Below are positions 14,130 through 16,162 of a stretch of DNA of 64,000 nucleotides, in pieces. A program made the translations under genes and the position numbers. The notes below the pieces were generated by a model. The model made no database searches. It was not told the origin of the DNA and was given only the letters and a program-made list of their open reading frames with translations. The stretch covers positions 1,550,001-1,614,000 of the forward strand of contig JAIXUN010000002.1 of NCBI GenBank assembly GCA_027483535.1, in the 5' to 3' direction. This DNA comes from a bacterium. Lineage in GTDB: Bacteria; Armatimonadota; Fimbriimonadia; Fimbriimonadales; Fimbriimonadaceae. Position 1 is the stretch's first letter. Each line of letters starts with the position of its first letter.

Positions 14130-15008
14130 TTAGACCTTCGCGGTCCACATTTCCTTCAGAAGGGAAGGAACGTCTGAAGTCCGGTCGGCAACCTTTGCGC
14201 CTGCGCTGAGAAGCGCATCGACCTTGCTTTGCGGAGTTCCGGTCTTACCAGAAATGATCGCTCCGGCGTGGCCCATTCGCTTTCCAGGAGGTGCGGTTCG
14301 GCCAGAGATGAATCCAACGACCGGCTTCTTCATCGTTTTGATGAATTCGCAGGCTGCCTCTTCGTCGCTTCCACCGATTTCACCGATCATGACGACGGCT
14401 TCCGTCGCGGGGTCGGCCTCAAACATTTCCATGACCTCGATGAACCGTGTTCCGGGAAGTGGGTCTCCACCGATTCCGACACAGGTGGTTTGTCCCATGC
14501 CTGCTCGCGTAAGTTCATCCACGATCTCGTAGGTAAGGGTGCCACTGCGGCTAACGAGACCGATGGGTCCCTTCGAGAAGATGTGGCCCGGCATGATGCC
14601 CATCTTGCACTCGCCGGGAGTAATGATTCCGGCGCAGTTTCCACCGAGGAGTCGGGTCGTTCCGTTCGCCCGCAATCGGTTGACGACTCGAACCATGTCG
14701 CTGATCGGGATGCCTTCAGTGATGAGCGTCACGAAAGGAACTCCGGCAGCCTCGCACTCGAGGACCGAGTCGGCCGCGAAGGGGGGCGGAACAAAAATGA
14801 GGGCCGCATCGGCACCCGTCGCAGCAACGGCGTCTTCCACGGTGTCGAACACGGGTCGATCTAGGAAGGTTTGGCCGCCCTTTCCGGGGGTCACACCGCC
14901 GACCACTTGAGTTCCATATTGGATCATTTGCTCGGTGTGGAAAGCACCTTCGCGTCCGGTCATGCCGCAGACGATGACCTTGGTGTTCTTATCGACTAAA
15001 ACCGACAT
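14130..15008 (-). CDS. sucD: succinate-CoA ligase (ADP-forming) alpha subunit
   Basis: SucD with SucC converts succinyl-CoA to succinate while making ATP or GTP in the TCA cycle. The 292 residues are the standard length. The CoA-binding Rossmann domain opens with [23 protein letters not shown] lies in the middle, and GHAGAI holds the phosphorylated His247. The beta subunit sucC usually precedes sucD, but here the upstream side is the non-coding stretch with the riboswitch, so sucC lies elsewhere. Confidence 0.96.
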
Positions 15009-15169
15009 CGGCGCAAGTGTACCGGGAGAGCGACGGCATTCCGCGTTCGTTCGCTATTGACGCGAATCAGTGAGCAGGCGGGGGCAAGATATTGCGATCT
15101 CAAGCGCAAATATCTTTCTGTCTGCATTTTCCTTTGAACTTCCTTGAGTGCATAATTTGTTTGCTGCAG

Positions 15170-15300
15170 AGCCAGCGCCGAGTGTCACAAGTTTGTGGCA
15201 GCGGGGGAACCGAAACATAGGGGTGAATTCGCCGATTCCGGTCGGTGATAGGGGAACTCTTGATCCGAACCCGACAGCTAACCCCGTAGGCGTGCGAGAG
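15170..15300 (+). promoter_or_regulatory. cyclic-di-AMP riboswitch (ydaO/yuaA class)
   Basis: The conserved core is present in order. CGCC (15176-15179) can close with GGCG (15289-15292) to form P1. Between them come GGGGGAACC, AGGGGTGAATTC, a CGCCGA/TCGGTG hairpin, TAGGGGAAC, and the diagnostic block CCGAACCCGACAGCTAAC followed by CCCCGTAGGC. These match the family known to bind c-di-AMP and to switch off downstream genes, typically for potassium or osmolyte transport and cell-wall hydrolases. Downstream here are only a terminator-like hairpin and hisB. CGTAGG in the 3' arm of P1 could instead pair with CCTACG at 15354-15359, giving a possible alternative fold. Confidence 0.9.
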
Positions 15301-15476
15301 TCGAATATGTGGGCCGATTCCATGGAGTCGGACGGATCAATGGCGATCTGATACCTACGTTGCTGGCAACCCGCCTTTGTAGTGCAAAGGTCTCGCGTGT
15401 AGAAAAGGGATCACGAGGTGCAGTGTCGTACGTCGCCCAATTCTCCAAAAGACCTTGTTTCTGTGACCTCCTAACA

Positions 15477-15505
15477 ACGGCTCCGCTTGCGGGGCCGTTT
15501 GTTTT
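15477..15505 (+). terminator. terminator or riboswitch expression platform before hisB
   Basis: ACGGCTCCG and CGGGGCCGT form a 9-bp stem with one G-U pair around CTTG, followed by TTGTTTTC. It lies about 180 bases after the c-di-AMP aptamer and 52 bases before the hisB ATG, so it could be the switch's conditional terminator. Confidence 0.8.
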
Positions 15506-15556
15506 CATCTCTGAACGCCTCGCAGAACCTACACCCTTCGTCGGTAGAATGAACTG

Positions 15557-16162
15557 ATGAGCAAGTCGGCTCCAGGCGTTCGCTACGGTGAAATCGAACG
15601 GGAAACCGGAGAAACAAGAGTGCGCGTCGTTCTTGACCTAGACGGTGGAACGAAGCGAAACATCACAACCGGAATTGGTTTCTTCGACCACATGTTGGAC
15701 CTCTTCGCTCACCACGGTCAGATCGACCTTGGAATTCAGGCCGAGGGCGACCTTCGGGTCGATGACCATCACACCGTTGAGGACGTCGGAATTGTTCTGG
15801 GCAAGGCGTTTTCCGAGGCTCTGGAAACCGAAAAGTCCATCAGCCGATACGCTTCTCTGCACAGTCCGATGGATGAGAGCCTGATTTTGATCGCAGTCGA
15901 TATCAGCGGTCGCCCGGGTCTGTTTTACGAAGTGCCGTTCAAGCGTGAACGATTAGGCGACCTGGCCACGGAAAACATCCGCGAGTTCCTGAAAGCTTTC
16001 GCCACCCACGCAAAGATCACGCTCCACGTTCGCTATGTTTGCGGGGAGAACGATCACCACATCGCCGAAGCGATCTTCAAGGGACTGGGTCGAGCGTTGC
16101 ATGATGCCACTCGACAAAGCGACCGCCGAGGTTCCACGTCGACGAAGGGAATGATTGATTGA
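15557..16162 (+). CDS. hisB: imidazoleglycerol-phosphate dehydratase
   Basis: HisB removes water from imidazole glycerol phosphate, the sixth step of histidine synthesis. The 201 residues are the monofunctional form, without the phosphatase half of the E. coli protein. Family segments are GIGFFDHMLDLFAHH, DDHHTVEDVGIVLG and ENDHHIAEAIFK, whose histidines and glutamates bind the two manganese ions. Its stop codon overlaps the TTG start of hisH (TTGA), so the two are translationally coupled. The gene lies downstream of the c-di-AMP riboswitch region. Confidence 0.96.
   Translation: MSKSAPGVRYGEIERETGETRVRVVLDLDGGTKRNITTGIGFFDHMLDLFAHHGQIDLGIQAEGDLRVDDHHTVEDVGIVLGKAFSEALETEKSISRYASLHSPMDESLILIAVDISGRPGLFYEVPFKRERLGDLATENIREFLKAFATHAKITLHVRYVCGENDHHIAEAIFKGLGRALHDATRQSDRRGSTSTKGMID

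Follow-up and report, generated by a model that had tools for sequence, protein, structure and literature searches.

Features of the locus

The window examined here is the whole 64 000-nt stretch of DNA, and in it an aptamer of the c-di-AMP (ydaO/yuaA) class lies between sucD, which encodes the alpha subunit of succinyl-CoA ligase and is divergent from the aptamer, and hisB. The features are as follows:

14130–15008, reverse strand: sucD, the divergent upstream neighbour, synteny conserved (Pfam CoA_binding and Ligase_CoA)
15151–15156, forward strand: CATAAT, predicted to be the −10 box of a promoter belonging to the small RNA (from sequence)
15166–15307, forward strand: c-di-AMP aptamer (RF00379, 87 bits, full length)
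15307–15360, forward strand: linker, a helix ATGTGGG/CCTACGT closing two hairpins (single-sequence fold)
15466–15472, forward strand: anti-Shine-Dalgarno motif ACCUCCU (33 of 45 genomes; identity with the 16S tail; position before a hairpin)
15476–15509, forward strand: intrinsic terminator, a 10-pair hairpin with a T-rich tail, at which the small RNA is predicted to end (sequence and 39 loci)
15545–15550, forward strand: predicted −10 box TAGAAT of hisB (from sequence; a comparable box is present in several relatives, not all)
15557–16162, forward strand: hisB, a neighbour judged to be outside aptamer control (IGPD, Pfam)

The aptamer was matched by RF00379 with a score of 87.0 bits (E 6e-19, model positions 1–134), well above the gathering score of 38 bits, and no other Rfam family was found in the aptamer region, even at E<=5. 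Hence, the complete plus-strand aptamer reported in a first-pass annotation of this DNA is confirmed, as are the terminator-like hairpin downstream of it, found at 15476–15499 with the tail TGTTTTCATC, and the identities of the genes that follow, namely hisB (IGPD, 1e-63), hisH (GATase, 7e-22) and hisA (His_biosynth, 2e-72). The mean RF00379 score is 86.0 bits for copies of the small-RNA type described below and 80.1 bits for ordinary copies and, as scores of the former are no lower than those of the latter, the ligand core has been kept. The genome also encodes one diadenylate cyclase and, given the retained core, it is likely that the window RNA senses c-di-AMP.

A conserved motif identical to the 16S rRNA tail

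The sequence ACCUCCU has the same letters as the 3′ tail of the 16S rRNA of this genome (GGATCACCTCCTTA), which was located through Rfam. RF00379 matches were found in 45 of 61 related genomes, and in 33 of these 45 exactly one aptamer copy is followed by ACCTCCT within 250 nt, whereas dinucleotide shuffling gave a mean of 0.9 and a maximum of 6 genomes. Altered heptamers used as controls gave 0–2, the exception being the Shine-Dalgarno complement, AGGAGGT. Downstream of the aptamers in the relatives the sequence reads (C)ACCTCCT(G), and a GC-rich hairpin follows directly. When the 33 loci from related genomes were combined with six more from a GTDB pattern scan, every one of the 39 had the motif directly before the terminator hairpin, this GC-rich hairpin starting 0–8 nt 3′ of the motif. 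This is in keeping with the earlier proposal that the transcript ends at the hairpin, which would place the motif close to the predicted 3′ end. The aptamer–linker–ACCTCCT–terminator unit is thus conserved in the relatives.

The seven letters of the motif are invariant across the 39 loci by the way the loci were selected; the flanking C is present in 33 and the flanking G in 35 of the 39, and the flanks were unselected in the 33 loci from related genomes. The window motif is a variant (GACCTCCTAA). Because the ACCTCCT heptamer is not rare in the whole window (5 occurrences against 6.8 expected), its weight there comes from its position and conservation. Single-sequence folds differ in whether the motif is unpaired, and in many loci it is predicted to be partly paired; it lies outside the covarying pairs of the linker, and no uniform gating of the motif was seen in these folds.

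The motif bears on two other accounts of the RNA. A c-di-AMP sponge, abundant enough to store or buffer the messenger and without mRNA targets, would likewise be an aptamer RNA that stands alone, with no gene downstream of it, and the proposed role of the c-di-GMP merRNA of Bdellovibrio provides a precedent (PMC3627812). However, such a sponge would not need an invariant anti-Shine-Dalgarno motif, yet the motif is kept while the length and sequence of the linker vary, and we consider this account improbable. Similarly small is the probability that the motif acts within the RNA, either as a partner of GGGGUG in the aptamer or as the remnant of an expression platform left after gene loss. Though CACCUC can pair with GGGGUG, and does so strongly in approximately 6 of 33 folds, this pairing is absent or minor in most folds and has a value of 0.00 in the window copy. 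In addition, the pairing takes up six letters whereas the motif is longer, and invariance across two families would not be expected of a remnant.

Distribution and ancestry

The RNA is not universal, as 12 of the genomes that carry the aptamer have no copy with the motif. The GTDB-wide scan for the layout returned 14 matches, all with Armatimonadota names. The stand-alone label, which includes four motif-less loci grouped by synteny or linker, changes 4 times across a tree of 88 aptamers, compared to 29.7 times for shuffled labels (minimum 23). Therefore, the stand-alone copies are essentially one old lineage, found in at least two families, and the small RNA is ancient and conserved across the Fimbriimonadales (Armatimonadota).

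Two loci (L017 and L018) retain the synteny seen in the window and have lost ACCTCCT. It is also lost from L030, in which the linker resembles that of the group, repeated CGACATGA...TCATGT inverted repeats are found downstream in place of the motif, and a gene for a Fic-type protein lies in the flank.

Relationship to hisB and other neighbours

In the window the aptamer, the terminator and hisB follow one another on one strand, and hisB is next to the sucD-adjoining aptamer copy in many relatives (at least ten). This order would suit an ordinary cis-acting riboswitch in which ligand-dependent termination at 15476–15499 controls hisBHA, and the first-pass annotation had proposed that c-di-AMP controls histidine synthesis. 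However, in the relatives the unit was found to stay where hisB is replaced, either by upp on the opposite strand, and thus convergent (L021/L072, L026/L081 and L006), or by unrelated genes, including those for a flagellin, a response regulator, a BadF-type ATPase and others. The conserved downstream gene that marks a cis-acting riboswitch was not found among the relatives, as the next gene is replaced or convergent. Since the unit persists with upp or unrelated genes adjoining it, the RNA is kept independently of hisB. In addition, hisB has its own predicted −10 box, which in the window ends 6 nt before the hisB ATG, and the hisB mRNA is predicted to have almost no leader or none at all.

An antiterminator had also been suggested, formed by pairing of CGTAGG in P1 with CCTACG at 15354–15359. 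Both sequences are present, but the pairing is available in just 1 of the 39 orthologues, and in the window fold CCTACG has a local partner, ATGTGGG, just 3′ of the aptamer. Control in cis would moreover leave the invariant ACCUCCU unexplained. Judged from gene order and promoter-like sequences, the aptamer almost certainly does not control hisB, and a cis-acting switch at this locus has, in our estimation, little probability. The other suggestion in the first-pass annotation, that the switch had lost its gene, is borne out only in part; a decayed orphan it is not, since the stand-alone RNA is conserved with its anti-Shine-Dalgarno motif.

Promoter and linker

For the putative small-RNA promoter in the window, a −10 box was found alone, without a −35 box. 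A −10-like hexamer lies shortly 5′ of the aptamer in the 39 orthologues, with the extended TGnTA form in about half of them, and the mean best score is 4.54 compared to 3.30 in shuffled sequences.

In the window fold the two linker hairpins are at 15314–15331 and 15333–15350, the second having the hexaloop AATGGC. Hairpins of the same layout in the relatives are backed by compensatory changes: in 11 relatives 10 pairs have changed on both sides, against 6.2 ± 1.3 when shuffled (0 of 500 shuffles), and sliding controls gave far lower values. Because these 11 sequences were also those used to draw the linker structure by hand, the percentage paired is biased towards it. A covariance model (R1) built from the 11 relatives finds a further seven loci (L080, L084, L074, L054, L082, L058 and L065) with E below 0.001. 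Searched against the genome that includes the window, it gave no match, the window copy included, because the window linker is too divergent; homology of this linker to that of the relatives is plausible. Folded over its whole length, the window copy is of no unusual stability (z −0.77).

That the linker encodes a short peptide under aptamer control is very improbable, as the short ORFs, for example one of 14 codons starting just after the window aptamer, are of the kind expected by chance, start codons are not shared in the alignments, and the single-base insertions and deletions, together with the pair-compensating changes in the linker, led us to reject it.

A putative trans-acting small RNA

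The features computed here, namely the aptamer, the independence of hisB, the motif, the terminator, the linker fold of the relatives and the descent in nearly a single lineage, are in our view best, and with reasonable probability, explained by a c-di-AMP-sensing small RNA that acts in trans through its anti-Shine-Dalgarno motif. That the RNA is stand-alone is strongly supported by its own promoter-like and terminator-like elements and by a position independent of its neighbours, and the motif, which is conserved, of the CCUCC type and a match to the 16S tail, is as expected of an anti-Shine-Dalgarno small RNA. We infer a free-standing non-coding RNA gene of approximately 340 nt, made up of a promoter, the aptamer, a structured linker, ACCUCCU and a Rho-independent terminator, which would be transcribed as a separate RNA. 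The RNA, including the copy in the window, would most likely bind c-di-AMP. Where an RNA ends in an anti-Shine-Dalgarno tail, base-pairing with Shine-Dalgarno sequences would be expected, as for NfeR1, and ACCUCCU most likely pairs in trans with other mRNAs at their strong Shine-Dalgarno sequences and blocks their translation. Ligand binding probably alters the exposure of the motif or the stability of the RNA, such that translation of other mRNAs would probably be repressed in response to c-di-AMP.

Candidate targets

Extended complementarity to mRNAs in the window's own genome and in nine relatives was at chance level and no target stands out; hence, only the 7–9 nt core would pair. In this genome, AGGAGGT-type Shine-Dalgarno sequences are found before ATG at 32 sites compared to 22 in the reversed control, and as strong Shine-Dalgarno sequences are few the targets could be a small set. 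For one chosen pair, the motif and the strong Shine-Dalgarno sequence of the genome's other riboswitch mRNA, the predicted duplex has an energy of −12.3 kcal/mol.

Most aptamers without the motif precede genes for small proteins of two families that have no convincing Pfam match, and GGAGG is present within 115 nt of 33 of 45 such aptamers, compared to 8.7 in shuffled sequences. The AGGAGGUG-type Shine-Dalgarno sequences of these families are complementary to the motif, and the small-protein mRNAs downstream of ordinary aptamers are candidate targets, no more. A wider proposal, that within a cell the RNA controls the remaining mRNAs with a c-di-AMP riboswitch, often those of small-protein genes with unusually strong Shine-Dalgarno sequences of this type, is tentative and on balance unlikely. 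Were it true, one messenger would act on the same mRNAs both through a cis riboswitch and through a small RNA derived from a riboswitch. Several genomes that have the small RNA do not have a second aptamer copy, so if the model is right other targets must exist in them.

The first small-protein family (approximately 95 aa, beginning MLTEFEVRRR, no Pfam match) follows ordinary c-di-AMP riboswitches at L002 (G000:C4:583573-583702), L020, L032, L037, L041, L059, L061 and others, and a divergent member, whose TTG start codon lies 43 nt 3′ of the aptamer, is present in the genome from which the window comes. Members of the second family (approximately 110–140 aa, several ending PFMEFSS) follow c-di-AMP aptamers at L035, L038, L052, L055, L056, L067, L070 and probably L063. 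By eye, the Shine-Dalgarno sequence appears to be in a hairpin loop and the start codon in the stem at L035, L070, L055 and L002, though this hairpin was not seen in the minimum-energy fold of L002. Two further c-di-AMP aptamers (L159 and L071) are upstream of genes that, judged by eye from the N-terminal sequence, are asparagine-synthetase-like.

Comparison with known systems

The adjacent genes controlled by known c-di-AMP riboswitches include those for cell-wall proteins and for transporters of K+ and amino acids (PMC7266159). The window RNA resembles these RF00379 riboswitches in its complete aptamer and strong score but, unlike them, it has no conserved adjacent gene and ends at its own predicted terminator. 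Few aptamer RNAs work in trans, and most of those that do are restricted to a single genus. The merRNA of Bdellovibrio bacteriovorus, proposed to be a c-di-GMP sponge, is also a stand-alone cyclic-dinucleotide aptamer RNA with no conserved downstream ORF (PMC3627812); however, it was found only in Bdellovibrio, whereas the Fimbriimonadales RNA has a c-di-AMP aptamer, is order-wide and includes an anti-Shine-Dalgarno motif. In Listeria, the riboswitch RNAs SreA/SreB (SAM) and Rli55 (B12) act in trans (PMC8079631), as is proposed for the Fimbriimonadales RNA. SreA derives from a real operon, as its terminated leader, and Rli55 sequesters a protein, whereas the Fimbriimonadales RNA has no cis target and its acting part looks like an anti-Shine-Dalgarno seed. 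Such CCUCC-type seeds are known from NfeR1 and alpha-r14 ('cuckoo') RNAs, in which they are unpaired and block translation initiation (PMC10746234), but these RNAs are alphaproteobacterial, carry CCUCCUCCC in three hairpins and have no aptamer.

A literature search, with most subscription journals outside its scope, gave no report of a c-di-AMP aptamer RNA with an anti-Shine-Dalgarno seed. The combination of a c-di-AMP aptamer, the absence of a cis gene and an anti-Shine-Dalgarno tail is found in none of the systems compared here and, if the trans-acting reading is true, second-messenger sensing and small-RNA silencing are fused in one ancient gene and c-di-AMP gains direct control over unlinked mRNAs.
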